A stretch of 42,751 nucleotides of DNA from the IMG/VR virus record IMGVR_UViG_3300007345_004370, positions 1 to 42,751 of that record; one strand, given 5' to 3'. Every line of letters starts with the position of its first letter. Within the stretch, counting starts at the first letter, position 1. Positions 1,475 through 15,149 of this stretch are shown here, in pieces. The position numbers were made by a program, and so were the translations under genes. Source of the DNA: a virus. The notes under the pieces are model-generated. The model saw only the letters and a list, made by a program, of their open reading frames with translations. It was not told the DNA's origin and made no database searches.

Positions 1475-2803
1475 ATGAATGTAGTTATATTATCACATAA
1501 GCGTAGTCTTAACAAGACCGAAGGTCTTATCACAGCGAATTTAAATAACCACATCACATTGGTTTGTGATGTGGTGCCAAACAAGTCAGGCGATCGCTAC
1601 AAACCTTTCATAAAACACATAGACGATTTAGTTGTATCAAAGAAGTTTGATATAATAGAAATCACAAAACAAATTATATCTTGTGATAAAGTGTTTTGTG
1701 TATCAGAAAATTTATTTCCTATTCAAGCACAATTAGAAAGTTATTACGGTATAAACAATATGTCTGCCTTTGCAGCTGAAGTGTTTAGTAATAAACAGAA
1801 ACTTGATGATTTTTGTAGAGTAATAGGACTACAACATAACGTACCTAAAAGTATTACACCTACCTTTCATAGTCAACTAGATGTATTTGATGGCAATGAG
1901 TTTTTTACAAAACCTGACATCGGTACTGGTAGTAATTCTTTCTATCCTAAATCAGATCAGAATACACCTATAATAGAGTATAGAAGATGGAATAACAAAC
2001 ATCATTTTTTAGATCATTTAAGTAAACTAAATTATCATAATGATTTTTTTGAAATCAATAAAACAGGTATTCAAAATGAAAACTTTAATAATGTACCTTG
2101 TAAAATTATGGCACAAGAATACTATTGGTCTGAAGAGCCATCTATATCACCTTATGGTTATGTTAAAGATGGTAAAGTAGATTGTTTATTCTATGTAAGA
2201 AATGCTAAAGTAAAGTATGGCGACATATTAGACTTTCATAAAAATCCTATAGATCAACATTCAATCAGTAAGAAAAGTGATATCGCAAAAGATATGGCAG
2301 TATGGTCTATACCTGTGAGTGAAGTAGATGAAGAGCAACATAGAATAATGTATGGTTTCGTACAGACTATAGTTGATAAACTAAAAGTAAAAGATATGTA
2401 CTTTGCAGGTCCTGACTTTCACATATCAGGTAAAAAATTAATTGCAATAGACTTTAATACACGTATAGGTCAGTTTATTAATATATTAGATAAGTTACCT
2501 GGCAATAATATATTTAACAATATAGGTAACAACAAAGAACCAGAAATTACAAATCATCTACTATGGGGTTGTACTCAATTAAAACCTGGTGTAATTAAAG
2601 AAATAAAGAATATAGAAATCGTTGAACAATATCTAAATTATCTGAATAAGAAGTTAGAAGTCGGTATGAATATACCTGAATTTCAAAATCTACAAAACAA
2701 AAAGTTTAATGTAAATCTTAACATAACTGGTAGAGATCAGCAAGAGCTGTTTGACAACTATAAGGATGCCAACCAGCTCTTACATAATTGTATTACTTAC
2801 TAA
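1475..2803 (+). CDS. ATP-grasp superfamily ligase
   Basis: A 442-residue protein with ATP-grasp architecture. It has a pre-ATP-grasp alpha/beta region (residues about 1-100), then FFTKPDIGTGSNSFY, which looks like the Lys-containing strand and Gly-rich loop that hold ATP. It then has AQEYYWSEEPSISPYGYV, like the adenine-binding hinge region, and AGPDFHISGKKLIAIDFN with a following TRIGQ, matching the Asp and Glu/Asn-x-Arg metal site near the C-terminus. ATP-grasp enzymes activate a carboxylate as acyl-phosphate and join it to an amine or thiol; the substrates here are unknown. The ATG at 1475 fits the frame; another ATG four bases earlier is out of frame. Its end overlaps the convergent TctC-like gene by 11 bases. 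The fold is fairly sure, the reaction is not. Confidence 0.75.
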   Translation: MNVVILSHKRSLNKTEGLITANLNNHITLVCDVVPNKSGDRYKPFIKHIDDLVVSKKFDIIEITKQIISCDKVFCVSENLFPIQAQLESYYGINNMSAFAAEVFSNKQKLDDFCRVIGLQHNVPKSITPTFHSQLDVFDGNEFFTKPDIGTGSNSFYPKSDQNTPIIEYRRWNNKHHFLDHLSKLNYHNDFFEINKTGIQNENFNNVPCKIMAQEYYWSEEPSISPYGYVKDGKVDCLFYVRNAKVKYGDILDFHKNPIDQHSISKKSDIAKDMAVWSIPVSEVDEEQHRIMYGFVQTIVDKLKVKDMYFAGPDFHISGKKLIAIDFNTRIGQFINILDKLPGNNIFNNIGNNKEPEITNHLLWGCTQLKPGVIKEIKNIEIVEQYLNYLNKKLEVGMNIPEFQNLQNKKFNVNLNITGRDQQELFDNYKDANQLLHNCITY

Positions 2804-3569
2804 AGTTAGCAACAGCCTCTTCAAACATTTCTATAGTTTGATTAGAACCATTTCCAACATAAGTTACAGAGCCTTTGAATTTACTATTCCACTCGGTAGT
2901 TGTAGAGAGGTTTGTTACAGCAGAACGTAATTCATTTGTTAAGGCGTAGTTAGCATTAATGGTGATGATTGCGTCAACAAATCTAAAACCTAATTCACCT
3001 TTTTCTGAAAAGGCAATACATTTAGAACCATCTTCCTCTAATGCGGCTTGACGTGAAGTAATTGTAAAGACAGTATCGGCGTCTTTGCCAACATAACCTT
3101 TAGTAGTACTTCCGCTGCCAGAATAAGGTACAACTACAAAATTTACATCATATTTTGCACCTAAATTTTTTAAGAATTTTGCAACTGGTTCTGATCCCCA
3201 TGTCGCAATCTTAACAGTTTGTCCACCCATATCTTCAAGTGAATTGTATGCTCTACTACACATAAGAGTTTCATATGTCATTAAAGCTACAATGTTATCT
3301 TTAGATACTTTCGGACTTTTCAAACTATCGTCACCTGGCCATTCACTAGACCATATCGTTAAGATAGGTTTATTAGATTCACCTTCAATATAAGTGTATG
3401 CAGTAACTGGATTATCTGCCTGAACAAAGTTATGGTCAGTTGTATCACCTATTGTAGAAAGAATTTGTCTGAAGACACCTTCTTGTGAACCAGGATTGAT
3501 TATTTGTACTTGAGCATATGCCATTGTACTGAACAACATACTCATTATTATTAACATTATTTTTTTCAT
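2793..3569 (-). CDS. tctC: TctC/Bug-like periplasmic solute-binding protein
   Basis: A 258-residue exported protein. The first 19 residues are a classical signal peptide (Lys-Lys start, hydrophobic core, AYA cleavage site). The mature part resembles Bug/TctC receptors of tripartite tricarboxylate transporters (TTT), notably GGQTVKIATWGSEPVAKFL followed by VVPYSGSGSTTKGYVG, matching the family's Gly-rich loop and VPYkG segment. Usual length is about 300-330, so it is shortened and divergent. It is the last gene of the minus operon, 11 bases after TctA, with AGGAG before the ATG. It would pass a ligand from the outer-membrane receptor to TctA. The ligand cannot be read from sequence: TctC proteins bind carboxylates and others, and cobalamin binding would be new. 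Confidence 0.7.
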   Translation of the reverse strand: MKKIMLIIMSMLFSTMAYAQVQIINPGSQEGVFRQILSTIGDTTDHNFVQADNPVTAYTYIEGESNKPILTIWSSEWPGDDSLKSPKVSKDNIVALMTYETLMCSRAYNSLEDMGGQTVKIATWGSEPVAKFLKNLGAKYDVNFVVVPYSGSGSTTKGYVGKDADTVFTITSRQAALEEDGSKCIAFSEKGELGFRFVDAIITINANYALTNELRSAVTNLSTTTEWNSKFKGSVTYVGNGSNQTIEMFEEAVANFSK

Positions 3570-3580
3570 TTTTTTATCTC

Positions 3581-4867
3581 CTATAAGATTATTAATGTTC
3601 TAATTAAATTTTCGTAAAATAGATCGCTTAGAAAGTATCCGTAAATAATAGGACTAGTATCCCAGCGTCTAATTAAGAACCCGATTATAGACAAAACAAA
3701 TATACAGATAATCATCCATTCACGTATGGCGAATATTGATATACTTGCAATGCTAATTATTGAGAGAAGTAAGATGTTTGCAATTGTTCTATATTGTTTA
3801 TAGAGATATGCAATCTTACCTAACAGATTGAAACCGTACCAGCTTAACCCCAAACAAAAGGCAGTAACAAAGGGTATAATATAAATTATACTTTCTAAAT
3901 GTTTGACTGTATTTTGAGCGTTGAAAACGAAACCATCTTCTAACATAATATAATAAATCAAAACTTCACTTCCCGTAATGGGTATCGCTAGTATAAGCAA
4001 AGGCAATAGTGATGATAAGGCGCCACTATTATTTGCTGCCTCTGCGGCTGCTATGCTTTTAAGTACAGGTTTTTTGAAAAACCTTTTAACAATATTTGCA
4101 CTTGCATAACTGCCAAGAATATTTGTTACACCTGGTATAAGACCACACCAAAATCCTACAAAACTTCCTATGAGTGTAGGCGTAGTTGTATCTTTACCAA
4201 CTGTAAAAGTATTTATACGTTTAGGTACTTCTACTTTAAAACTATTTAACTTTGTTAGTTCTGGCACTATGTATAATCCTATCATCACACTTGCAAAAGG
4301 TATTCCGATTGCGAGGTATGAGTTATTGAAAGTCAAAAAACTATCAAATGTAATAGGGTCTATACCTACTTTTGCAATCATGCCTCCGAATAAAAACAGT
4401 ATTATTGTAAACAATTTATTTTGTTTTGTCAATAGTGTAATCATTATAATTGCAGCTGCAACAATAACTGTCTGTAGTACACTATTATAAAATCTAAAAA
4501 CTTCTATGATCCAAGGCAATACAAAAATAAAAACAGTAAAAGCAAATATAACTCCTACTGTACTACTTACAGCGTTAGAAGCAACTGCTAGATTACCAAA
4601 ACCTTTTAAGAATAATTTGTGACCATATCTTGCAGTACTCATTGCTGTGGCGTCACCAGGTATACCATACAGAATAGCAGTTACACTATTTGTATAATTA
4701 GTTGCAATCAAAACTGTTACGTAATACATCATAACATTGACAGGCTCTATATGTGTTAGAAAAGGATATAGAGTTGCCGTTGCAACAAAAGGTCCTGCAC
4801 CTGGTATTACACCAAAGATGACACCACTTAAAGTTCCTATTATAGCCCAAAATATTGTATCGTACAT
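3581..4867 (-). CDS. tctA: TctA-like integral membrane transporter subunit
   Basis: A 428-residue, very hydrophobic protein with about ten or more membrane segments. It carries the TctA hallmarks twice: PGAGPFVATATLYPF near residues 23-37 and GIPGDATAMSTARYGHKLF near residues 68-86, with a second repeat GLIPGVTNILGSYASANIVK in the C-terminal half. TctA is the channel subunit of TTT secondary transporters, usually about 500 residues; the C-terminal part is short here. The small subunit TctB is not present next to it or elsewhere in the window. The start codon overlaps the stop of the receptor gene (TAATG), and TctC follows. A late box inside the gene (4210-4217) is probably chance. Confidence 0.8.
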   Translation of the reverse strand: MYDTIFWAIIGTLSGVIFGVIPGAGPFVATATLYPFLTHIEPVNVMMYYVTVLIATNYTNSVTAILYGIPGDATAMSTARYGHKLFLKGFGNLAVASNAVSSTVGVIFAFTVFIFVLPWIIEVFRFYNSVLQTVIVAAAIIMITLLTKQNKLFTIILFLFGGMIAKVGIDPITFDSFLTFNNSYLAIGIPFASVMIGLYIVPELTKLNSFKVEVPKRINTFTVGKDTTTPTLIGSFVGFWCGLIPGVTNILGSYASANIVKRFFKKPVLKSIAAAEAANNSGALSSLLPLLILAIPITGSEVLIYYIMLEDGFVFNAQNTVKHLESIIYIIPFVTAFCLGLSWYGFNLLGKIAYLYKQYRTIANILLLSIISIASISIFAIREWMIICIFVLSIIGFLIRRWDTSPIIYGYFLSDLFYENLIRTLIIL

Positions 4868-6507
4868 TAAAATGATTTGTTAAAACCTAAAGTAAACTTT
4901 CTACCTTCTTGTGAGAAACCATGAGGTGATTCATACTTCTCATTCAATAGATTGTTTAGACTTACACCAAAATTAAATCCATGATAGTTATAACCTAGAT
5001 TTAAATCAACTAAATGTGTTTCTGGCATTGATATTGTAGACCAGTTTGAGTTATGTATATCTAAATGTTTACCTTTGTATTTGTAGTTAGTAGTTAAAGT
5101 AAAGTTATTTTCAAACTTCTTATTGTGAATAAAACCAAGTGACCATTCTGGTCTTCTTAATGATAATACATCTTTTGTTTTACTTGTTAAATTACTTGCA
5201 AAAAGTTTCCAATCACCTGTATTATATGACATCTCTACACCATTTGTATTCAGATCACCTATATCATTTTGAAAGATAGTAGTAGCAAAGTTATTTTTAG
5301 TTAACGTTACCTCTTGTGAGTCACCATATACTACATCGCTGTATAATGTTTTATCTTTATATGACGTTGAGTGACTACCACTTATACTTAAACCATCGTC
5401 TAATTCTTGTAAGAATCCTATTTTATAAGTTTCATGGTCTTCATCAAATCTATGATGATATGATAATATGTTGTATGAAAAATTAAAGAAGTATCCCATG
5501 CCATGATTTCTACCTGTGTTTTCTGACCATGCAGATTTACCATAATTTTCATCATGTTTATAATCAAAACCTATTCCCCAATTTTGTCTTTGATGAACAC
5601 CTCTTAACGACCAATTTTGACTATCATAATTAGCGTCATCATAAATTCTTTCATATTCGTGTGTATGAAAAGTTAAACTATTATTAAAGTAATCTATACC
5701 TGTTTGAAAAGCATAAAAACTATTATCAGACCATTTGTCATCTTGTACAGCAAGACTATGACCATCAATATCTGTAAACGTATTTCTTGTAAACCAAGAT
5801 GCTCGCCAATGTATCATATCATACCATTTACTTACATTGACACCTATAGTCTGATTTTTTGTACCGTCTTTTTCATCAGCACCTGATAAAGCAGAAACAT
5901 TTTTAGACTCATGTTCACCTGCTGAAACAGATATATCAAAGTCATTTAATCTAGTATAATAATTACCACTTATAGTTTTATCATTACCATTACCTGATAC
6001 ATTATATCTTTTATCGTAATCTACAGTTGTTATAAAATTAATTGCACCACCTACAGCGTCTGCACCCCAATGAGCACCTGCACCACCTTTATATACATTT
6101 ATTTGTACAACGTTAAACATAAAGTCTTGCCCAACGTCAAATGCACCTGTAGGTGTTGATGTATCATTGATAGGTATACCATTCAATAAAACTAAAGTGT
6201 GATTAGAGTTTGTACCTCTTAAAAATACAGAACCAGTTTGTCCTTTTGGTCCTGATTGTGTAACGTCTAGTGTTGATACGTAATTTAAAACACTTGGTAA
6301 ATCAATTAGATTGTGTTCTCTTATTTCTGTTTTTGTAATTGTTGTTGTAGGTGTTATTCTATCACCTAATGCGTTTGAATTATTTAAGCTACCTACAGGA
6401 ATCACTATACAAGGTGGGTCATCATCCCAACTACAATCAAAACGATTGTCTTCAGCGAAAGTTTTTGTAGATACAAATAAAAATAATAATATAATCAATA
6501 ATCTCAT
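4867..6507 (-). CDS. BtuB-like TonB-dependent outer-membrane receptor
   Basis: A 546-residue outer-membrane receptor. A signal peptide (about 1-18, ending TFA) is followed by a possible TonB box around IVIPV. The plug has TTTITKTEIREH, then SVFLRGTNSNHTLVLLNG and WGADAVGGAINFIT. These align by eye with the BtuB plug (IRGTN-x-x-H-x-LVLIDG; YGSDAIGGVVNIIT). The barrel ends with LNNLLNEKYESPHGFSQEGR and a final Phe, like the BtuB C-terminus and as needed for barrel assembly. BtuB imports cobalamin. This copy is shorter than the usual 600 residues, with reduced loops. An unusual pair of Cys lies just after the signal peptide (about residues 24 and 32). It follows the last oxygenase by 8 bases with AGGA before the ATG. 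Receptor identity is firm; cobalamin specificity is inferred. Confidence 0.88.
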   Translation of the reverse strand: MRLLIILLFLFVSTKTFAEDNRFDCSWDDDPPCIVIPVGSLNNSNALGDRITPTTTITKTEIREHNLIDLPSVLNYVSTLDVTQSGPKGQTGSVFLRGTNSNHTLVLLNGIPINDTSTPTGAFDVGQDFMFNVVQINVYKGGAGAHWGADAVGGAINFITTVDYDKRYNVSGNGNDKTISGNYYTRLNDFDISVSAGEHESKNVSALSGADEKDGTKNQTIGVNVSKWYDMIHWRASWFTRNTFTDIDGHSLAVQDDKWSDNSFYAFQTGIDYFNNSLTFHTHEYERIYDDANYDSQNWSLRGVHQRQNWGIGFDYKHDENYGKSAWSENTGRNHGMGYFFNFSYNILSYHHRFDEDHETYKIGFLQELDDGLSISGSHSTSYKDKTLYSDVVYGDSQEVTLTKNNFATTIFQNDIGDLNTNGVEMSYNTGDWKLFASNLTSKTKDVLSLRRPEWSLGFIHNKKFENNFTLTTNYKYKGKHLDIHNSNWSTISMPETHLVDLNLGYNYHGFNFGVSLNNLLNEKYESPHGFSQEGRKFTLGFNKSF

Positions 6508-6515
6508 AATTTATC

Positions 6516-7172
6516 CTATAGTAGTTTTTTATATTTAGGCGTTTGTTTACCTGTTATTTTTGCAATTGTTCTAGGCCATGGTCCTGTGTTAGCAGTACTA
6601 TGTGGTATGTTTGCCCAATCAAACCATACTACATCACCTGCTTTCCATGGTGGTACATATGTATTCCCAAATTGAATAATATGACCTGGTTTCCAATCTT
6701 CTAACATAACAAAAACTCTACCCCATTCAGGATCAGTTGCTCTGCTTGATGATTGATCTTTTCTCTCTTTTCTTAAACCTGTTAAACTATCAATATGTAA
6801 ATGTAACATCATACCTGTAGTTTGAGTTTGTATATTTACCTGTGCGTCTTCTAAACCTAACTTGTCTGCTAGACCACACAATATAGGACACTCTTTCTTT
6901 GTTGCAGTCCACATTCTGTAGATTACAAAGTCTTTAGGTATACCCCAATCTTCTACTAGTTTATTTTCATACTCATAATCAAAATGATCGCCACCTGGTT
7001 TTACAGGACTAGGCCAATAGAAATCATATTGTTGCTTGTTTGCATATTCTAATTCCTTTGACCAGTCCTCATAAATGTTTGTAACTGTCTTAAAGTATTT
7101 ACCATGATCGCTTTCTCTAAAAGGATTGAAATCATAGTTACTTTGTTTAACAGTTATATCCCACCTGTTCAT
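6516..7172 (-). CDS. 2OG-Fe(II)-type oxygenase, copy 6 (most divergent)
   Basis: A 218-residue double-stranded beta-helix protein. The iron triad is His126-x-Asp128 (in HLHIDSL) and His191 (IPHSTAN). Arg201, ten residues later, suits binding of the 2-oxoglutarate carboxylate. The segment from GRVFVMLEDW through WKAGDVVWFDW is typical of the jelly-roll core. It lacks the GG-x3-H-x-D motif of the other copies and has a longer N-terminal part, so it may use a different substrate. The ATG at 7172 overlaps the previous stop (ATGA); an ATG at 7184 is an alternative. Likely role: hydroxylation or another oxidation in the same pathway as the upstream radical SAM enzymes. Confidence 0.7.
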   Translation of the reverse strand: MNRWDITVKQSNYDFNPFRESDHGKYFKTVTNIYEDWSKELEYANKQQYDFYWPSPVKPGGDHFDYEYENKLVEDWGIPKDFVIYRMWTATKKECPILCGLADKLGLEDAQVNIQTQTTGMMLHLHIDSLTGLRKERKDQSSSRATDPEWGRVFVMLEDWKPGHIIQFGNTYVPPWKAGDVVWFDWANIPHSTANTGPWPRTIAKITGKQTPKYKKLL

Positions 7173-7735
7173 GCCATACTCCAAAACGCTTTGTTGTTTG
7201 TAAACAAAGTACCGTTGTTATATTTTGATCTAACTCTGGCAAACCAATACTTAATATCAACAACAAAAGTAATTCTATCGTTTGTATTATCTAAAGATTT
7301 GATTGTTCCGTGCATGTAATTCGCACTATAAATTATAGGCGTATTATTCGTATGTTCTACTCTTTCTACAACTTGGTCAAATTGATCTATAAAGATAACA
7401 GGCGACTTTGACCAATCGTTATCTTCTTCATCACATATAACAGGAAATTGTAGTTTAGTAAAATTTTCAAAATCCCAATGGTTAGGTATACCACCTGGAT
7501 GTACTCTACTGAAATATACTCTCGTTTCATCTATATCAGCATTTATGTTTTCTTTTAGTAGTCTGTAAAATTCATGGTTACGATCAAACGTACTGTTTTC
7601 ATCAATAGGCGAATACTGTGGTAACTTATCTTGTCTATGTACCCACTTTGTTTGATCTACTGTTTTGTATAGATCAACTAACATATCTAAATTAAATTTC
7701 ATTTTATCTGCTTGTATAGAATAGAAATTAGTCAT
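7169..7735 (-). CDS. 2OG-Fe(II)-type oxygenase, copy 5
   Basis: A 188-residue member of the oxygenase group. It has GGIPNHWDF giving His86-x-Asp88, His132 in NYMHGT and Arg144 in DRITFVV, spaced 12 after the distal His. The order and spacing fit aspartyl/asparaginyl beta-hydroxylase-like and related 2-oxoglutarate oxygenases. A conserved SPVIFIDQ segment precedes the distal half, as in the neighbouring copies. The ATG at 7735 lies in the 8-base overlap with the upstream gene; an earlier GTG at 7744 is less likely. It sits third from the end of the second radical SAM and oxygenase module. Substrate unknown. Confidence 0.72.
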   Translation of the reverse strand: MTNFYSIQADKMKFNLDMLVDLYKTVDQTKWVHRQDKLPQYSPIDENSTFDRNHEFYRLLKENINADIDETRVYFSRVHPGGIPNHWDFENFTKLQFPVICDEEDNDWSKSPVIFIDQFDQVVERVEHTNNTPIIYSANYMHGTIKSLDNTNDRITFVVDIKYWFARVRSKYNNGTLFTNNKAFWSMA

Positions 7736-8336
7736 TAGATACACCTATGTTTTCTGTATTCTTATTTAACCATGTACCATCAACAGCTTTCTTAAACATT
7801 TCTGTAGGATGTGAGTGTATGTTAACAGAAAATACAACTCTTTCTTCCTCTAAATCTAAAGGTGTAGGTACAGCATGTAAAACTCTGCTATCAAAAAATA
7901 CAGGTGTACCATTATCATGTATCTTACTTTTTTCAAAATTAAATCTTTCTATTTCTGTATAGTTTTCTGTTGCAAATATTTGAGGTGTGAGTTCAAACTT
8001 ACCTCTTACAGGAAATAATATTGCACCCCAACGTCTGTGGTCGTAGTGTAAATTTATACCACCTGGTGGTAATTTAGAAAAGAATGCCCATGGTTTTTCA
8101 CCATGGAATGTTCTTTCTGTACTACCGACTTGATCTAAATTCATATTCTCTACAATATCTTTCCACATATTCTCATATGGTATATTTCTACACTCACTAA
8201 CATTCCATGCTACGCCTGTTCTACTAACTCCGTTTACCCAATCACTAGGTTTCAAACTATCTAATACATCTATCAACCATTGTTGATTGTAATAAATGTT
8301 ATGACATTTGACAAAGAAGTTACCTTGTTCAACCAT
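7728..8336 (-). CDS. 2OG-Fe(II)-type oxygenase, copy 4
   Basis: A 202-residue protein with PPGGINLHYDHRRWG, which gives His97-x-Asp99, then His154 in VLHAVP and Arg166 in ERVVFSVNI. It shares with copies 1 and 3 a G-x-F-x-x-TPQ-x-F segment (here RGKFELTPQIF), so these are tandem paralogs. Members of this group use Fe(II) and 2-oxoglutarate to hydroxylate side chains or small molecules in the cytoplasm. The ATG overlaps the methyltransferase stop by 8 bases, so translation is coupled. The N-terminal 50 residues vary between copies and may select the substrate. Confidence 0.75.
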   Translation of the reverse strand: MVEQGNFFVKCHNIYYNQQWLIDVLDSLKPSDWVNGVSRTGVAWNVSECRNIPYENMWKDIVENMNLDQVGSTERTFHGEKPWAFFSKLPPGGINLHYDHRRWGAILFPVRGKFELTPQIFATENYTEIERFNFEKSKIHDNGTPVFFDSRVLHAVPTPLDLEEERVVFSVNIHSHPTEMFKKAVDGTWLNKNTENIGVSND

Positions 8337-9234
8337 GTGTCATCTCCGTAAATATTCTGTACATAGGTGGTCTGTATAAATTACAATGGTCGTAATCAAC
8401 TTTGTTTATTTTTAAACCTACATGACCTGCAAGTGTATTTACAGCATGTTCAGTCCAGTTAAAGTACCATGTGTACTTCCAGTTTCTATCATAAAAATAA
8501 AACGCACTATTTTTTTGTGCATGTTCTAAATCGCCATGTATCCAAGTATGACCATGTGGGTGATCTGGTTGAAATACTTTATAGTAATTATGAACATGTG
8601 ACCATAATAATAGACCACTAGGTGCTAAACAATTCTTTAACGTCATAAAGTTTCTATATTGTTCATCATACGTATACCAGTTTTGAGGACCAAAACATAT
8701 AATTACATCCCATTTTATATCATCAGCAGGTTTAAAATCTGCTTGACTACAGATTATGTCTGCTTCTTTTCTATATGGATCAACGCCTGTAACATTATTT
8801 AAATGTTTCTTATATTCATTTACACCACAACCCATATCTAATATTGTTAAATTAGGTCTTTCTTTTTGCATTGCTTGTAATCTTTTAACAAGAGCTTCAC
8901 CTCTTATATTCCATTTGTTTGTAATAGGTTTATCGTTTACATCTTTTATTTCACCTACGACACCTGTTGTACTTGTGCCATTTTCTGCTACAAAGTAATT
9001 ACTTTGATATTGTTTATCTATTTCTTTTACGAAATCGCCCATTGTTTTATCGTGCCAATCCATTATGCCACCTAAATGTATAGGGTATTCTTTATCTCTT
9101 ACTGTCATAGAAAATTCTTTTTGACAAGCAAGAATAAAATCCATTGTAAAAGGTAATTGATTGATAGGGCTATCTACTGATATGTTCCAGTAAAATAATT
9201 CTTCTACTTTATTCCATATTAATTTGTTTATCAT
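8329..9234 (-). CDS. SAM-dependent methyltransferase
   Basis: A 301-residue class I methyltransferase. An N-terminal region of about 110 residues, perhaps for substrate, precedes a Rossmann domain with motif I ILDMGCGVNEY (about residues 131-141). An acidic VDPYRKEAD follows strand 2, and WDVIICFGPQNW sits at motif IV. The His- and Trp-rich C-terminus is unusual. The ATG at 9234 overlaps the radical SAM stop (ATGA) and has GGAG at good spacing; a TTG 12 bases earlier is rejected. It occupies in module B the place held by the peroxiredoxin-like gene in module A. Substrate unknown. Confidence 0.75.
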   Translation of the reverse strand: MINKLIWNKVEELFYWNISVDSPINQLPFTMDFILACQKEFSMTVRDKEYPIHLGGIMDWHDKTMGDFVKEIDKQYQSNYFVAENGTSTTGVVGEIKDVNDKPITNKWNIRGEALVKRLQAMQKERPNLTILDMGCGVNEYKKHLNNVTGVDPYRKEADIICSQADFKPADDIKWDVIICFGPQNWYTYDEQYRNFMTLKNCLAPSGLLLWSHVHNYYKVFQPDHPHGHTWIHGDLEHAQKNSAFYFYDRNWKYTWYFNWTEHAVNTLAGHVGLKINKVDYDHCNLYRPPMYRIFTEMTHG

Positions 9235-10895
9235 TTTATTCTCCAAGACTCACTAAATCTACCTCTAACGTGTATATCTCTGAGCCATTCCATCTTATCG
9301 TCAATAGGTCTGAAATCTTTTTTGTTGCGATCAATAATCTCATCATATTCTGGATACATTTCTTTGAACACATCAAATATATTATTCTCGGTATAGAACA
9401 AGTGAGAATAAGCTGTATCTGTATAATAATTTATATCTTTATTAAGTATCTTATATCCAATGTCTTTGTACTCATTAAGTGCTTTAAAATAATGTTCTCT
9501 AACATCTAGTTTGTGTTTCATAAATGTTTTGTTTTTAAATAGTTTTGAATATATGTCTTTAAATAATTCACTTCTATTACCATTAATTTCATAATAACAA
9601 TCAGCATGATACTTTGCTAGACCATACCAGTACATTGGTATTAAGAAACTTCTACTATAAAAGAAACCTTCAAAGACTTGATCTCTTGTCATCTTATCTG
9701 TTGCAACAGCAATCTCATCTATTACATCATTGTTATATGGCTTTGCAGTACCTTTAATATTTTGCCATATCATTTCAGGAAAACCTGTGTTAAATTCTGT
9801 ATTACTTAATCTACTTAAAGTATTAATCTGTATCATATCAAATGGTGCAGGCATGTCAACTATTTCGTGTAGACCATACTTAAATGTTTCTAAACTATCA
9901 CCAGGCAAAGGAAAGATTAATTCTGTATATGATGAAACACCTTTGTCTTTTAAATTCTTTATGATAGGTTTGAAACTCTTAATATCAAACGCATTTCTTC
10001 TATTGACATTATCTAAAGTTTCAGGATTTGTAGATTGTAAACTAAAACCAAAAGTGTCATCTACATTTGCGTCTTGCAATTTCTTTGCTAACTTCATTAT
10101 CTTTTCACCATGTGTCTTAGCCCACGTAGGCATAAATCTACCATTGAATTTACCTGCCTTCTTTTGTTCTACTACAAAATCTACAAGTTTTTCATCTCTA
10201 GGAAATATACCAAAGTTACTATCTGCTACATCTATAGCAGTTACATTTCTATCACACATCCATTTTAGTTCTTTTAAACATTTTTCTGTTTCAAACATTT
10301 GTATCTTTGTATATTTCTTATGGCCTATGTCACAGAAAGAACAAGTATAAGGACAACCTCTATTGCCTTCAAAGATTGCTCTGACTTTTTGTGTGTTGCC
10401 TTCTAGTAAACTATCAAAGAAACCATTAAGATAAGGACTAGGTATCATTTTAGGGTCGGCATATTCTGCCTCGGCTGCATTGTTAAAGTCTTTTGTAACA
10501 ACACCTGGTATGTTAAGTTCATCATCTACTAGTAATCTTCTCATTGTTTCTTCACCATAGTATGCTAACACAGCGTCTATTTCAGGATGTTTTTTACACC
10601 ATTCTGATGTATATTGTGGTTCAGGTCCACCTACAACTATTCTACATTTAGGATACTTCTTTTTTATTTCTTTCAATGCGTCATATGTTATTTTCCAGTT
10701 CCACATATAACAACTTGCAGCTATAAAATCAGGTTCAACTATATCAATCTCTTTGTTCCACCATACACCTGCAAGTTTATATTTCTTTCGTACTTCTTCA
10801 AACTGATTACAATAAGACCAGATCGTACCTACTGCTTGTGGCAGATAGGCTGCGTCTGTACCTAAAGGTATCTGTAGAAAATAGAAGTTACGCAT
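9231..10895 (-). CDS. B12-binding-domain radical SAM protein, copy 2
   Basis: A 554-residue enzyme. Residues about 1-125 look like a cobalamin-binding fold (DFIAASCYMWNW, then CRIVVGGPEPQY and YYGEETMRRLL), without the Asp-x-His-x-x-Gly lower-ligand motif, as is usual for this class. The radical SAM core starts with GNRGCPYTCSFCD; Cys181, Cys185 and Cys188 would bind the 4Fe-4S cluster. FGFSLQSTNPETL and ELIFPLPGDSLETF are typical core strands. B12-radical SAM enzymes methylate unactivated carbons or phosphorus, or rearrange rings. It is a paralog of the gene at 13232-15082 and heads the second module. The ATG at 10895 sits in an 8-base overlap. Upstream in-frame starts would add 24 unlikely residues. 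Confidence 0.85.
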   Translation of the reverse strand: MRNFYFLQIPLGTDAAYLPQAVGTIWSYCNQFEEVRKKYKLAGVWWNKEIDIVEPDFIAASCYMWNWKITYDALKEIKKKYPKCRIVVGGPEPQYTSEWCKKHPEIDAVLAYYGEETMRRLLVDDELNIPGVVTKDFNNAAEAEYADPKMIPSPYLNGFFDSLLEGNTQKVRAIFEGNRGCPYTCSFCDIGHKKYTKIQMFETEKCLKELKWMCDRNVTAIDVADSNFGIFPRDEKLVDFVVEQKKAGKFNGRFMPTWAKTHGEKIMKLAKKLQDANVDDTFGFSLQSTNPETLDNVNRRNAFDIKSFKPIIKNLKDKGVSSYTELIFPLPGDSLETFKYGLHEIVDMPAPFDMIQINTLSRLSNTEFNTGFPEMIWQNIKGTAKPYNNDVIDEIAVATDKMTRDQVFEGFFYSRSFLIPMYWYGLAKYHADCYYEINGNRSELFKDIYSKLFKNKTFMKHKLDVREHYFKALNEYKDIGYKILNKDINYYTDTAYSHLFYTENNIFDVFKEMYPEYDEIIDRNKKDFRPIDDKMEWLRDIHVRGRFSESWRIK

Positions 10896-11421
10896 TTTTG
10901 AAATTCTTTGTGTCTGTCCATATAGTTTTGTTGTCAATCTTTGCAAACAATTTATCAACCCACTCAAATAAATCCATCATCAATACCCATCTAGGTCCTG
11001 TATCAGTTAACTGTCTAGGTACAGCGTGTAACATACGTGTATTGAATATAACAGGACTATCAACTACGAATGACTCTACTGGATGATTGAATTGATCGTA
11101 AAAGTATTGAGGTGTATTTTCAAAATCACCTTTCAAAGGTATACCTAGATTGCCCCATTTGTTGTGGTCAATATGGTTTACTAACCCACCAGGTTTCACA
11201 TTACTAATAAAAAATGATGGTCTTTTAAATTCTGTATTTAGACCTTCATACAATTCATTTAGTATAGGAAACTGTTTAGGGTTTAAAGGTAGTTCTTCAA
11301 CATTCCAAAGTAAACCATTTTGATCGTACCCTTGTCTCCATGTTGCTCTTTCAGCATATTCAATTATCTCATTGAAAACGTTTTTATCGTATTGTAATTT
11401 AAATTTTTTATGATACCACAT
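10888..11421 (-). CDS. 2OG-Fe(II)-type oxygenase, copy 3
   Basis: A 177-residue protein, the shortest of the group. KPGGLVNHIDHNKWG gives His83-x-Asp85; MLHAVP gives His132; Arg144 (GPRWVLM) follows 12 residues later. It shares the KGDFENTPQYFYD segment with copies 1 and 4. The start is a one-base TAATG overlap with the upstream oxygenase. It closes the first module, and the second radical SAM gene overlaps its end by 8 bases. A full set of metal and cosubstrate ligands suggests an active enzyme; the substrate is unknown. Confidence 0.75.
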   Translation of the reverse strand: MWYHKKFKLQYDKNVFNEIIEYAERATWRQGYDQNGLLWNVEELPLNPKQFPILNELYEGLNTEFKRPSFFISNVKPGGLVNHIDHNKWGNLGIPLKGDFENTPQYFYDQFNHPVESFVVDSPVIFNTRMLHAVPRQLTDTGPRWVLMMDLFEWVDKLFAKIDNKTIWTDTKNFKNA

Positions 11422-12074
11422 TACGCATACCTATATTGTTCTATTAATCTTTCAAATAAATGTTCATCAAACTTCATACAAAATACTAACATAATAATAT
11501 CGTCCGATGTACTAAAAACTGAATGTCTTTTGTTTGCGTTAAAGAAAAACATCTGGCCATCTTTAACATCTCTAACTGTATCCTCGTATATAAACTTTAA
11601 ATCTTTTTTATCACACCTGTTAATGAAAGCAATAAATCTTATTTCATCATAACCATATTCTAATTTGTTTACATCATAGTGTTCAGGAAAATAACCACCT
11701 GTGTTTAGTTTTAGAAAGTGACATCTCCCTAACCAAGGTTTCCATGGTTCAATGAGTTTCTGTAATTCTTTTGAGTTATCATATACTTCGGTGTATTCTT
11801 TTATGTGATGATTTGTAATACTAGTACCATGTATCTTATTGTATTGTAGTAAACTATCTAAATCAGGTATACCACTTAACTTGCCATCTAAACTTGTTAC
11901 ACTTAATCCCCACCTGTTATTTGGGTTTCTTAAATTGTAAGGTTTCCATGAGTCTTTGTATGGCTCAAGGTCTTTCATTATCTGTCTAGTATTAATGTGT
12001 TGTTTCATTTGCAACCAATCACCCATAGTAGAAAGTCTTTGAAGCGCTTTGTTTGTTCTATCTACACTGCTCAT
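11421..12074 (-). CDS. 2OG-Fe(II)-like oxygenase, copy 2, without the usual Arg
   Basis: A 217-residue protein. It has NTGGYFPEHYD giving His132-x-Asp134 and KRHSVFS giving His184, as in aspartyl/asparaginyl beta-hydroxylase-like proteins. The positions 10-12 residues after the distal His, which carry Arg in all the other copies, are in DDIIMLVF and hold no Arg or Lys. Cosubstrate binding must differ, or the protein may not be a 2-oxoglutarate enzyme. The N-terminal 110 residues are longer than in its neighbours, with PWLGRCHFLKL before the core. It starts on an ATGA overlap. Confidence 0.65.
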   Translation of the reverse strand: MSSVDRTNKALQRLSTMGDWLQMKQHINTRQIMKDLEPYKDSWKPYNLRNPNNRWGLSVTSLDGKLSGIPDLDSLLQYNKIHGTSITNHHIKEYTEVYDNSKELQKLIEPWKPWLGRCHFLKLNTGGYFPEHYDVNKLEYGYDEIRFIAFINRCDKKDLKFIYEDTVRDVKDGQMFFFNANKRHSVFSTSDDIIMLVFCMKFDEHLFERLIEQYRYA

Positions 12075-12715
12075 ATAAATTTTATCCTTTTGTTTTTTTC
12101 ATTCTGTTCCCAGTTTACTAACGTACCATCTAGTAATCTTTTTTCTATATCTTCATAACTATTATGTCGCCAAGCACAAGTTATAATAATTCTATTTTTT
12201 TCTGTCTTGTTTTCTACACCATGTATTTCAGGACCTTTAAATATCCAAGGTGCAAATTCATTTGTAATATCATTTTTCTCATATGTCATTCTATACTTTT
12301 CTGTACTTCTATCAAAACTATCATAGAAAACTTGTGGACTTGTATCACTAAACTCACCTCGTATTGCAAAGTTTAAAGCAGTAGGTCTGTTTCTATCTTG
12401 GTGTGGTGGTGCACCACCTATTGCTGTTTGTGTGTACAATACAGTATCAAAAGATATTGCAGGTGTAAAAAGATTTATCAACTCATAATGAAACTCACTA
12501 AAAGGATAGTTTTTACATTCTCGTCTAGCATTAAATGCCTCTTGTACAGTCCATCTTATATGACCACAATCAAACAGATACCAATTGTTTTCGTCTATAT
12601 TCTCTAAATGATTTAATAGATATTCTCTATCGTACCAAAGAGTTTTTAGCTCACGACAATACGGTGCTGATCTTGTTTCTTCCAAGGACGTCAACCTTAT
12701 CTCTGGCGTCATCAT
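12071..12715 (-). CDS. 2OG-Fe(II)-type oxygenase, copy 1
   Basis: A 214-residue protein with AIGGAPPHQDRNRP giving His105-x-Asp107, PEIHGVEN giving His165 and NRIIITCAW giving Arg175. The RGEFSDTSPQVFYD segment aligns with copies 3 and 4. The start is uncertain. ATG at 12715 has AAAGG four bases before it, while ATG at 12727 lacks a site. Either choice overlaps the end of the peroxiredoxin-like gene by 65-77 bases, far more than elsewhere in the operon. The first 23 residues have no counterpart in the paralogs. Likely a hydroxylase of the module substrate. Confidence 0.7.
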   Translation of the reverse strand: MMTPEIRLTSLEETRSAPYCRELKTLWYDREYLLNHLENIDENNWYLFDCGHIRWTVQEAFNARRECKNYPFSEFHYELINLFTPAISFDTVLYTQTAIGGAPPHQDRNRPTALNFAIRGEFSDTSPQVFYDSFDRSTEKYRMTYEKNDITNEFAPWIFKGPEIHGVENKTEKNRIIITCAWRHNSYEDIEKRLLDGTLVNWEQNEKNKRIKFI

Positions 12716-13235
12716 TAAACCTTTCATAATTTGTTTGTATAATTTCTAAATACTTAATCATTGTATCAGCGTCTGATACTTGAAAACACGTCATAGGGTT
12801 GTGTGTAAAGTCTTCATACTTACAATGTTTCATAATTAGATTGTCTATAATCATAGCGTATCTATGACTACAATTTCCTAATCCTTCTTTACTCATACTC
12901 TCTAACATACCTATAGATGTGGCCCAATCACCATTAGGGTCAGGTAAGTTTTTTAGGTACGATAAATTTTCTGATTTGTGATATGCGTTTTGTACGTAAC
13001 AATTATCAACACTTGTAAAATATACTTCATCAATACCTAGTTCTCTTATCTTGCTGTAATAGAAGTCGTATGCTTTTAAATGTGTGGCTGCATACTCAAC
13101 AAGAAATACGCCAGGCAATCCTATTAGTAATATCTTTTTATCTTTAAATAATTCGTGTGTAGAATACCAGTTTGTGGCTGCACTATCTTTGTGCATAGTT
13201 TTTATATCTGGTATTATATCGCCAACTCTTATCAT
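12651..13235 (-). CDS. peroxiredoxin-fold protein lacking the peroxidatic Cys
   Basis: A 194-residue protein that follows the Prx5-type AhpC/TSA layout: VGDIIPD at the N-terminus, KILLIGLPGVF at the active-site strand, HLKAYDFYY in the helix, then GIDEVYFTSVDN and PDPNGDWATSIGM. Active family members have PGAFTPTCS; here the same place reads PGVFLVEYA, so the Thr and the peroxidatic Cys (expected at residue 48, which is Tyr) are missing. Four other Cys are present, none in that position. It is probably a binding or structural protein rather than a peroxidase, perhaps recruited to the pathway. The ATG at 13235 overlaps the radical SAM stop (ATGA) and has AAGGAG upstream. Confidence 0.7.
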   Translation of the reverse strand: MIRVGDIIPDIKTMHKDSAATNWYSTHELFKDKKILLIGLPGVFLVEYAATHLKAYDFYYSKIRELGIDEVYFTSVDNCYVQNAYHKSENLSYLKNLPDPNGDWATSIGMLESMSKEGLGNCSHRYAMIIDNLIMKHCKYEDFTHNPMTCFQVSDADTMIKYLEIIQTNYERFNDDARDKVDVLGRNKISTVLS

Positions 13236-15082
13236 AACATAATCTCCTTTGATTTCAAAAAACATCTCTTGGCTTTTCTTCCCCACCAGAATAAATGCTT
13301 TGAGTGGTCTACTATATCTTTATATTTATAAACGGCTACAGATACGATATTATTAACAGCGACTAATGGTTTGTTATCGTAGAACCAACTATACCAATTC
13401 TTATCAAATTGTTTTTCTGTATCATCTCTTTCGTATGTGTCAATAATGTGCTTGTTAAACTGGCACGCTTCTGATACATCTACATTATATTCTTTCTTAC
13501 ATATGTCTATAACTTCTTTATGTACCTTGTCTATGTTTTTATATAAGAAAGAAGCTGTTGCACCATTATCTTGTATATGAAAATCATCGCCACCTTCAAT
13601 AGTTCTACCCCATGTCTTATCTTCAAATAAACTTTGTTTCAAACTGTTTGTGTGATTTTTATATTCTTCATTTAGTATGCCATTACCATTTCTACTATAC
13701 TCAAATAGTTTTTTATAAAAATCTATAAATGGTACATTGTGTTCTCGGTTAAGATATGTGGCTGCAACTTGACTAACACCATGATAGTGATGAGGTATCA
13801 CAAGACCTTTAGCGAAAAAATACATGTCTATATAATCTTGTTTACTAAAACTTTTACTTTCATATGCAACATAATCAATCTCACCATTACTATCTTTAGG
13901 ATAAGTATTACCACCTGCAGGTGCAGCTGTCTTTGTATATTTGTATCCGTATTTGTTTTTATATTCAGGATCAGAAAAAGGAGTATTAGGTACAATACTC
14001 AAAGGGTGTACTGTTAACGCATGGTCACTTCCTAATTCTAGTATCTTACCTATACCTTCAATCCATGTGTCTAATGTTTCTTCAGGTAAACCTACAATTA
14101 GTTCACAATAATTATCAACACCTGCTTTATTATAGTCGCCAACAATTTGTTCTAATTTTTCATTTGCAAGATTAATTCTTTTGATTGCTTTTAATGTTTT
14201 AGGATTCATACTTTGTAAAGCAATAGTAACACCACGTCTTATCTTTGCTTCTTTATTAAGTATTTCACCCAACTCAACAATACGTTTTGGTTGTTGTTTT
14301 GCTGTACTATAATCTATCTGTCTAGGATAACCAGTTTCATTTCTACGTTTAGCGATGTGTCTTATAAAGTCAACATCTCTATTGAACATACCTACATTAC
14401 TATCACCAAAGTATAAGAAGTCAATTTTATTTTTTACAATCCAATCTATCTCACCTATTACTCTATCATAATCAAACATGGCAATCTTATTGTAATATAA
14501 ATCTTGTTGATCGCAGAAAGAACAACTATATGGACAACCTCTATTAGTTTCTATGATAGCACTATATTGTTTACCAGGTTGCATAAGACTATCCATCAAC
14601 CCACTTAAATAAGGACTTGGTATGTCGTTTAATTCTTTATCTGGTTTAGGTGGCGTATAAGAGTCTTTTGTCATTACGCCTGGGTACGTATAGTTACCTT
14701 TTAGTATTTCAGCAAATGCTCTTTCACCTGCATATGTAACTATAATATCGCATAGGTCAGTATTGTCTTCTAACCAACTTTGTTTGAATGGCACTTGTGG
14801 TCCACCCATTACTATTTTGCAATTAGGATATTTCTTTTTGACTGCTCTTGCTAACTGACAAGTTATGTCCCAGTTCCACACGTATGTTGATAATGCTAAG
14901 ATGTCAGGATTGTCAATCTTTTTTAGATAGTCCTCTACGGACTCTCTTTCAAAGAAGATGTCTCCTAATTCCCAATCTGTTACCTGTGTCTTACAATATT
15001 CCCATATGTAAGCAACACTTAACGGTAAAAAGATAGCGTCAGCAATTAGATTGTTTATTTGAGTAAAATATACCTTTTTCAA
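13232..15082 (-). CDS. B12-binding-domain radical SAM protein, copy 1
   Basis: A 616-residue first gene of the minus operon. Residues about 1-130 form a B12-binding-like region (ILALSTYVWNWD, CKIVMGGPQVPF, YAGERAFAEIL). The radical SAM core begins with TNRGCPYSCSFCD, with Cys183, Cys187 and Cys190 as cluster ligands. RGVTIALQSMNPKTL and CELIVGLPEETLDTW are core strands. A C-terminal extension of about 200 residues ends in a basic Trp-rich tail. It is paralogous to the gene at 9231-10895 (shared IPSPYL-x-G, WNW and KKKYP-x-C). The start is TTG: an in-frame TGA lies just one codon upstream and AAGGA sits seven bases before, so no longer start is possible. Reaction unknown; a methylase or rearrangement enzyme is likely. 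Confidence 0.85.
   Translation of the reverse strand: MKKVYFTQINNLIADAIFLPLSVAYIWEYCKTQVTDWELGDIFFERESVEDYLKKIDNPDILALSTYVWNWDITCQLARAVKKKYPNCKIVMGGPQVPFKQSWLEDNTDLCDIIVTYAGERAFAEILKGNYTYPGVMTKDSYTPPKPDKELNDIPSPYLSGLMDSLMQPGKQYSAIIETNRGCPYSCSFCDQQDLYYNKIAMFDYDRVIGEIDWIVKNKIDFLYFGDSNVGMFNRDVDFIRHIAKRRNETGYPRQIDYSTAKQQPKRIVELGEILNKEAKIRRGVTIALQSMNPKTLKAIKRINLANEKLEQIVGDYNKAGVDNYCELIVGLPEETLDTWIEGIGKILELGSDHALTVHPLSIVPNTPFSDPEYKNKYGYKYTKTAAPAGGNTYPKDSNGEIDYVAYESKSFSKQDYIDMYFFAKGLVIPHHYHGVSQVAATYLNREHNVPFIDFYKKLFEYSRNGNGILNEEYKNHTNSLKQSLFEDKTWGRTIEGGDDFHIQDNGATASFLYKNIDKVHKEVIDICKKEYNVDVSEACQFNKHIIDTYERDDTEKQFDKNWYSWFYDNKPLVAVNNIVSVAVYKYKDIVDHSKHLFWWGRKAKRCFLKSKEIML
13323..13330 (-). promoter_or_regulatory. 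possible internal late promoter
   Basis: A perfect TATAAATA on the minus strand lies within the 3' end of the first radical SAM gene, 88 bases before the ATG of the peroxiredoxin-like gene. It could boost the downstream oxygenase, receptor and transporter genes. It is within coding sequence of an AT-rich genome, so chance is a real alternative. Confidence 0.35.
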
Positions 15083-15149
15083 GCTTCATTCCTTAATTCT
15101 CTACTCTACCCTCTATTGATATTTATACATAAATATGTTATAATATATT
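15083..15149. promoter_or_regulatory. divergent promoter between the two large operons
   Basis: These 67 bases separate the TTG start at 15082 (minus) from the ATG at 15150 (plus). On the minus strand a perfect TATAAATA (15127 to 15120) would start transcription near 15114, giving a leader with AAGGA before the TTG. On the plus strand CATAAATA (15128-15135, one mismatch) and a sigma-70-like TATAAT (15139-15144) would start transcription at or just before the ATG, so the first plus gene may have an almost leaderless message; no ribosome-binding site is visible there. There is no room for a cobalamin riboswitch, which needs about 200 bases. Confidence 0.6.

Follow-up and report, generated by a model that had tools for sequence, protein, structure and literature searches.

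Why would a virus of marine bacteria encode an outer-membrane receptor resembling BtuB, and do so beside enzymes that appear to require cobalamin (vitamin B12)? This question is raised by the IMG/VR virus record IMGVR_UViG_3300007345_004370, which was analysed over its whole length of 42,751 bases (GC content about 0.32) and is called the window below. An earlier note had placed a TonB-dependent receptor and two radical S-adenosylmethionine (SAM) genes with B12-binding domains in one operon on the minus strand; all three genes lie where the note had them, and each is supported by Pfam. In the surface ocean vitamin B12 is scarce, and SAR11 bacteria are not usually regarded as B12 users. Our analysis argues strongly that the receptor family represented in the window recognises cobalamin. 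That the window copy itself is a phage-borne cobalamin receptor of BtuB fold, serving the two radical SAM enzymes, we consider probable. Marine phages akin to SAR11 phages carry an outer-membrane receptor of their own, which very probably takes up vitamin B12. The cobalamin link, which the note had inferred, gains independent support from riboswitches of the relatives, from the BtuB-like fold, from gene co-occurrence in SAR11 genomes, and from a cobalamin-facing tryptophan kept by both radical SAM genes.

Likeness of the receptor to BtuB

Profile searches placed the window receptor nearest to the B12 receptors. In the NCBIfam ranking, TIGR01779 (TonB-B12) reached 91.5 bits and BtuB (PRK10641) 86.2 bits, followed by the hemin model with 56.2 bits; all these values are far under the respective cut-offs. 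Among solved chains, the first six rows were all BtuB entries. A profile of 47 receptors (the window, 27 other phage sequences, and 19 SAR11 sequences) was compared with eight receptors of E. coli: BtuB matched over its full length with 185.8 bits, CirA with 96.1, FepA with 75, Fiu with 42, FecA with 40, PqqU with 29, FhuE with 13, and FhuA with 10 bits. BtuB agrees with the family at 45 of the 90 columns conserved at 90%, CirA and FepA at 30 each.

The AlphaFold2 model of the receptor has a predicted local distance difference test score (pLDDT) of 84 and a predicted template modelling score of 0.84; the signal and the N-terminus are poorly modelled. The predicted structure consists of plug and barrel, and its nearest fold is BtuB: Foldseek listed E. 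coli BtuB in rows 1-12, and VIA listed BtuB in rows 1-11 with Z-scores from 41.7 to 35.7. FhuA came next with 35.5, a tie with the lowest-scoring BtuB rows. The resemblance to BtuB claimed by the earlier note was thus borne out among the receptors compared; both by profile scores and by fold, the window protein is nearer to BtuB than to siderophore or sugar receptors. At the positions which we take to contact calcium and cobalamin in BtuB, Q62, D195, and D230 are kept in all 47 aligned receptors, and R497 is kept in 45.

Relatives of the window receptor also resemble BtuB in the cobalamin riboswitch that precedes their genes. The differences are considerable: the window receptor is only about 20% identical to BtuB in structure alignments, it has 546 residues versus 614, it is encoded by a phage, its family possesses an N-terminal C-x-W motif with a second cysteine, and TonB was undetected in those SAR11 genomes which carry the receptor. 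The C-x-W motif and the second cysteine are invariant in 47 of 47 aligned receptors, precede the plug (C25, W27, and C33 in the window), and occupy the expected place of a TonB box; they possibly form a disulphide loop. The receptor is under purifying selection, the ratio of nonsynonymous to synonymous substitution rates being 0.18-0.24 in comparison with three relatives.

Cobalamin riboswitches ahead of related receptor genes

Rfam detected the AdoCbl-II riboswitch above its gathering score just ahead of the receptor gene at 10 of 15 SAR11 loci and 2 of 7 phage loci. From these 12 sites a covariance model was built and run on the window and on 68 viral receptor loci, 1.03 Mb in all. It gave 23 matches (E ≤ 10) among the 68 viral loci and none elsewhere in the searched sequence. 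All 23 sites are located 21-82 nucleotides upstream of the first in-frame ATG of the receptor gene (median 24); they represent 8 distinct sequences, many carriers being near copies. Rfam confirmed all of the seven sites that were rechecked among the 21 new viral ones. At SAR11 loci the model found the riboswitch in 14 of 20 cases, ten of which are members of the model. As a comparison, 52 of the 78 viral loci among the radical SAM gene 1 matches listed gave no match, with the proviso that some of them hold a receptor of the window type, of the type at locus L104, or of the swapped type described below.

The helices of the riboswitch show covariation, with two-sided changes in 14 of 21 pairs, a value reached in none of 500 shuffles, for a structure which was derived from the same alignment. 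In 8 of 10 distinct leaders, those of L068 and L110 included, the Shine-Dalgarno sequence is part of a small hairpin, and the CAAG of its loop could pair with a CUUG of the aptamer; this pairing may constitute the expression platform. The receptors of 22 of the 23 carriers are 71-76% identical to the window receptor, that of L110 is 41% identical. In the window and its near copies, the receptor gene sits inside the operon. A phage riboswitch of the glutamine type has been described previously (PMC9004378).

The radical SAM enzymes and their association with the receptor

Both radical SAM genes of the window exceed the Pfam cut-offs for Radical_SAM and for the B12-binding domain, and both contain the CxxxCxxC motif. 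Among solved chains, gene 1 matched TokK (7kdx) with an E-value of 1.1e-66 and CysS with 5.5e-48. Gene 2 is 30% identical to gene 1 in the alignment, and its best NCBIfam match is the KedN5 model. With methyltransferases of the TokK/CysS/KedN5 type the window genes share the combination of B12-binding and radical SAM domains, the RGCxxxCxFC motif, and a tryptophan which in TokK (W76) occupies the space on the lower axial side of cobalamin (PMC9692996). Counted on the TokK alignment, W69 of gene 1 meets this residue, gene 2 has the same WNW, and the tryptophan is kept in 5 of 5 radical SAM proteins compared. The window genes differ from these enzymes in being phage-borne and in their low scores of 189.6 and 161.5 bits with the subfamily model NF033712 (KedN5), whose cut-off is 700 bits. 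The comparison supports the assignment of both genes to the putatively cobalamin-dependent kind, and the aligned residues gave no sign of the missing cobalamin pocket by which, according to the note, the claim would be refuted.

Proximity of receptor and radical SAM genes extends beyond the window. In the flanks examined, a radical SAM gene, recognised by motif and length, accompanies the receptor at 40 of the 68 viral loci and at 13 of the 20 SAR11 loci; near-identical contigs are counted separately here, as they are among the operon-bearing contigs. In 4 of the 40 viral loci the radical SAM gene lies 2 nucleotides downstream of the receptor. The arrangement varies: the two genes are convergent with a 4-nucleotide overlap, or the radical SAM gene lies 2 or 17 nucleotides downstream, or upstream. 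On the contigs L104 (44 kb) and L107 (41 kb), which are possibly fragments, the sole radical SAM gene is 2 nucleotides away from the receptor. Of the radical SAM neighbours scanned at SAR11 loci, 3 of 4 are above both Pfam cut-offs.

Distribution and phylogeny of the receptor family

Two scans of IMG/VR yielded 68 distinct viral loci with a receptor of this family. When each species was represented by a single genome, a scan found 20 homologues of 28-36% identity, all from Pelagibacteraceae (SAR11); 19 of them match over most of the receptor and one (L034) over residues 1-390 only. The reading frame of the latter (L034:8675-15028) runs on to 2117 amino acids after homology to the query has ended, which is likely due to a join or a masked stretch. 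At 24 further loci, mainly of Bacteroidetes according to record titles, with one from Ignavibacteria and one from an unclassified bacterium, mostly the plug region is matched.

In a maximum-likelihood tree rooted at the midpoint, 28 phage receptors are located on one side of a branch (support 99/99), 19 SAR11 receptors on another (99/98), and five swapped phage receptors on a separate long branch. Since phage and SAR11 receptors group apart, the family does not, on this tree, look like a recent acquisition from the host. The open reading frames differ in length, with a median of 541 amino acids in phages (n=60) versus 623 in SAR11 (n=19).

The receptor gene can be regarded as an auxiliary metabolic gene, as it lies in a virus genome with virion genes: a baseplate gene is present in the window and the capsid gene gp23 on contigs of relatives. 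Most viral receptor records are fragments; of the 23 receptor contigs tested, three carry gp23, namely two with the operon type of the window and one (L090) with a riboswitch. At four loci (L076, L086, L105, and L110) the receptor stands beside a gene which by eye resembles thyX. The GC content of these contigs is higher (0.37-0.45), and hosts other than SAR11 are therefore likely for them.

In a phage collection, which may omit near relatives of the window, no isolated marine phage with the receptor or TctA was found; 8 records matched the receptor, with 27-42% identity along 17-28% of the query, and 6 matched TctA, but their names, their lengths, and the lack of annotation led us to take them for bacterial or prophage DNA. 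The marine megaphage Mar_Mega_1 has a SusC-like TonB-dependent receptor, which is thus of the same general type; it is annotated for carbohydrates, and the available text of the paper mentions neither B12 nor cobalamin (PMC9723777). Phage receptors of the TonB-dependent type and phage riboswitches each have a precedent (SusC-like, PMC9723777; glutamine, PMC9004378), and no report of a phage-borne B12 receptor was found in the open-licence literature.

Receptor-bearing SAR11 genomes

The cellular counterpart was analysed in 297 Pelagibacteraceae genomes, drawn evenly from a larger group; the counts are uncorrected for kinship and for missing parts of genomes. The receptor plug occurs in 60 of these genomes, always once per genome. 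DUF6580 is encoded in 56 of the 60 receptor-bearing genomes versus 2 of the 237 others, and a B12-binding domain (E ≤ 3e-8) in 54 of 60 versus 23 of 237. In at least 28 of the 60 genomes this domain lies within 5 kb of the receptor on the same contig. At an E-value of 9e-8, the number of genomes with a B12-binding domain is 80 by the entered threshold and 81 by the count of the program.

At most SAR11 receptor loci among those listed, the next gene encodes a small membrane protein, and the two that were scanned are DUF6580 (L024:11884-12381 and L030:11655-12152). As DUF6580 had no match by sequence among solved chains, a fold search was needed. With the model (pLDDT 87), rows 1-20 of VIA were proteins of energy-coupling factor (ECF) transporters, according to their titles nearly all S-components, with Z-scores of 8.7-13.8, a range to be read with the warning of VIA that for helical models values under about 13 may reflect a mere common arrangement. 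The top row was cobalamin-bound BtuM (13.8), tied within 1 with six others; MreD (8.3) followed after row 20. SAR11 DUF6580, which adjoins the receptor, is accordingly predicted to be a BtuM-like S-component by its modelled fold; it differs from BtuM and the other ECF S-components in lacking a sequence match to solved chains, and the sole cysteine column noticed varies among 13 sequences. In the 68 viral receptor loci, no DUF6580-like gene was found by motif. BtuM itself had originally been proposed from co-location with btuB, and its function was tested by the B12-dependent growth of an E. coli strain devoid of BtuCD and BtuF (PMC6072759); for DUF6580, no mention was found in the open-licence literature.

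Two further markers were discarded. ExbD is present in 262 of the 297 SAR11 genomes and, being nearly universal, is uninformative on TonB systems. FecCD, considered as a marker of BtuC, exceeded its cut-off of 26.5 bits in 75 of 297 genomes with a best score of only 30.8; these weak matches of frames of about 270 amino acids to part of the profile were read as other ATP-binding cassette permeases. No strong BtuC-type permease stood out in the 297 genomes. An IMES-2 RNA motif (160.9 bits) was observed near one SAR11 receptor locus (L024:5273-5413).

Proposed function and alternative explanations

We propose that late in infection the receptor is produced together with the two putatively cobalamin-dependent radical SAM enzymes. 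It would bring a corrinoid through the outer membrane of its host, probably a SAR11 bacterium or a neighbour, and the imported corrinoid would load the enzymes with their cofactor. In SAR11, the inner-membrane step might be performed by a host protein such as DUF6580, the predicted BtuM-like S-component. In many related phages the receptor gene is placed behind a cobalamin riboswitch instead; there, a shortage of B12 in the cell would switch on its production. A phage family which contributes this receptor, together with a vitamin-sensing RNA at about a third of the loci, would demonstrate that phages acquire a cofactor and not only a nutrient. Moreover, the receptor family would allow the entry of B12 into SAR11-like cells, in which neither a strong BtuC-type permease nor TonB was found, to be tested directly. 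Only tentatively, and with somewhat less than even confidence, we extend the proposal to a general picture: phages would own distinct, long-evolving cobalamin receptors, often with a riboswitch, which feed phage radical SAM enzymes, and the SAR11 version would do without a recognisable TonB and hand B12 to the BtuM-like DUF6580.

A number of observations weigh against this proposal. The window receptor remains far below the TIGR01779 equivalog cut-off of 599.7 bits and was ruled out as a member of the NCBI BtuB equivalog. The likeness at ligand residues is partial: in addition to the positions kept (see above), there are three presumed contact positions, Y531, T289, and N276, which are not kept in the window receptor. 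No riboswitch was detected, either by Rfam or by the 12-site model, before the receptor gene of the window or of its near copies. The radical SAM neighbours in four phages (L007, L015, L104, and L110) are all above the Radical_SAM cut-off and reach only 16.7-28.6 bits for the B12-binding domain, whose cut-off is 32.1 bits. Loci with either gene alone are common. Among the radical SAM gene 1 matches listed, 19 of 78 viral loci have the receptor, where absence from the other 59 refers to the examined flank, in some cases a short one; both riboswitch and radical SAM gene are missing from 17 of the 68 viral loci with a receptor, some of which end at a contig edge; and 6 of 32 whole receptor records, including L082 (62 kb) and L099 (48 kb), gave no radical SAM match. 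Because of these counts, we abandoned the idea that each receptor is strictly paired with a radical SAM gene: the coupling is common, not obligatory. On the side of SAR11, Foldseek results for DUF6580 were weak (best E-value 0.45), in addition to the caution that applies to its Z-scores. None of the 297 genomes gave a match to TonB_C; TonB_2 was absent from all 60 receptor-bearing genomes and above cut-off in 1 of 20 others. Either the Tol proteins or a TonB of divergent sequence serve in SAR11, or the energy for uptake is supplied otherwise than in E. coli. Candidatus Pelagibacter ubique has been reported to lack a TonB-dependent transporter (PMC3400609). Finally, cobalamin does not account for the adjacent genes, those for TctA and an exported protein, which suggest that another solute is handled too.

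These two genes are the starting point of an alternative, according to which the window receptor has drifted to another ligand, e.g. a chelate of iron or of an organic acid that is passed to the downstream TctA and exported protein. On each of the 16 viral contigs from the TctA search, the gene immediately upstream of TctA encodes a receptor, and on 9 contigs this is a different one (28-30% identity to the nearest family query), which would fit such a partnership, as would the missing riboswitch of the window copy. We nevertheless regard the drift as unlikely, because a more distant TctA (68%) occurs together with the exported protein (58%) on L136 without a detected receptor, because receptors 71-76% identical to that of the window lie behind cobalamin riboswitches, and because BtuB is the nearest fold. 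The swapped receptors in the slot before TctA comprise a different protein of 595 amino acids with Pfam Plug and barrel (L126:18896-20683 as well as L202, L205-L208, L210-L212, and L214). Another contig (L150:17309-19182) has, in place of receptor and TctA, a permease-like gene and a binding protein of glycine-betaine type (OpuAC, 3.6e-38).

Two other explanations were weighed. Receptor and radical SAM genes might merely share a gene-rich variable region and be functionally unlinked. The operon-bearing contig of 165.7 kb has 7 radical SAM matches, in 59 of the 78 loci mentioned above no receptor was detected in the examined flank, and the B12-binding domain of the neighbours is below cut-off in four other phages. 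A chance assembly of this kind is nonetheless quite improbable, given that the only radical SAM gene on the L104 and L107 contigs adjoins the receptor and that SAR11 co-occurrence and riboswitches independently indicate the same cofactor. We see an even slimmer chance that the receptor is a surface protein employed in the competition between phages, namely a decoy or a substitute for a host receptor that blocks superinfection. At L072 and L087 the receptor does stand beside genes resembling tail fibres by eye and beside a variable cassette, pelagimyophages have a variable region with radical SAM cassettes next to tail fibres (PMC7029224), and the phage receptors are shorter than those of SAR11, as if loops had been lost. 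A decoy, however, needs neither a cobalamin riboswitch nor an adjoining radical SAM gene, and the plug residues are kept.

Organisation of the operon and neighbouring genes

The operon (Table 1) is a string of minus-strand genes, neighbours in which overlap or are at most 12 nucleotides apart, so that a single transcript is likely. It begins with radical SAM gene 1, as the earlier note had stated; the end which the note had assumed at 4867 must be moved to 2793, since TctA and the exported protein had been missed. The same operon was found on further virus contigs, the largest comprising 165,693 bp, and gp23 is present on 2 of 3 of these tested.

Table 1. Promoter element and genes of the minus-strand operon in the window
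Feature	Position	Strand	Remarks
T4-late-type promoter element TATAAATA	15120..15127	-	38 nucleotides ahead of the first gene of the operon
B12-binding-domain radical SAM gene 1, 616 amino acids	13232..15082	-	PF04055 and PF02310 above cut-off; W69 in STYVWNW
Redoxin-like protein	12651..13286	-	Pfam Redoxin 1.4e-11; phrog_2281
Small protein, 2-oxoglutarate oxygenase-like by eye	12071..12727	-	Pfam: no match
Cupin-like small protein	11421..12074	-	Cupin_2 8.8e-4, under cut-off
Small protein, 2-oxoglutarate oxygenase-like by eye	10888..11421	-	Pfam: no match
B12-binding-domain radical SAM gene 2, 578 amino acids	9231..10967	-	PF04055 1.9e-14, PF02310 3.3e-11; SCYMWNW
Methyltransferase-like protein	8329..9246	-	Methyltransf_23 4.2e-5, under cut-off
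Small protein, oxygenase-like by eye	7728..8336	-	Pfam: no match
Small protein, oxygenase-like by eye	7169..7744	-	Pfam: no match
Small protein, oxygenase-like by eye	6516..7184	-	Pfam: no match
BtuB-like outer-membrane receptor, 546 amino acids	4867..6507	-	Signal peptide, plug and barrel; Pfam Plug 4.6e-17
TctA permease, tripartite tricarboxylate transporter family	3581..4867	-	PF01970 1.1e-57
Exported binding-protein-like gene	2793..3569	-	Signal peptide read in the sequence; TctC-like by eye only

The late promoter mentioned in the note is supported: the octamer TATAAATA, which agrees with what we take to be the T4 late promoter consensus, precedes the first gene. Its frequency in the window is about that expected by chance (10 copies versus 10.4 expected); 7 of the 10 copies are at most 70 nucleotides upstream of a gene start in our own list of starts, and one of these seven (13323) falls inside radical SAM gene 1. 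The true start of radical SAM gene 2 is probably an internal ATG near 10895. For the six small genes of the operon, a presumable resemblance to 2-oxoglutarate oxygenases was noticed by eye; five have no match in Pfam and the sixth has only a weak cupin match. The exported protein was rejected as TctC, because it did not match the TctC profile (PF03401) even at an E-value of 10 and its best solved relative (E-value 0.28) was unconvincing. Directly beside TctA there is no room for the small TctB subunit, which was not sought by profile.

The window is a T4-like phage contig, with T4-like baseplate genes at its right end. For its gp6-type baseplate protein, the counterpart in Pelagibacter phage Mosig shows 59.8% identity, that in HTVC008M 55.7%, and that in methylophage Melnitz 52.8%. 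Between 15150 and 25864, a cassette on the plus strand contains genes for a DegT aminotransferase and a CmcH-type carbamoyltransferase, as assigned by Pfam, and further small genes which by eye are radical SAM-like and glycosyltransferase-like; it looks like a cassette for small-molecule or surface-sugar chemistry.

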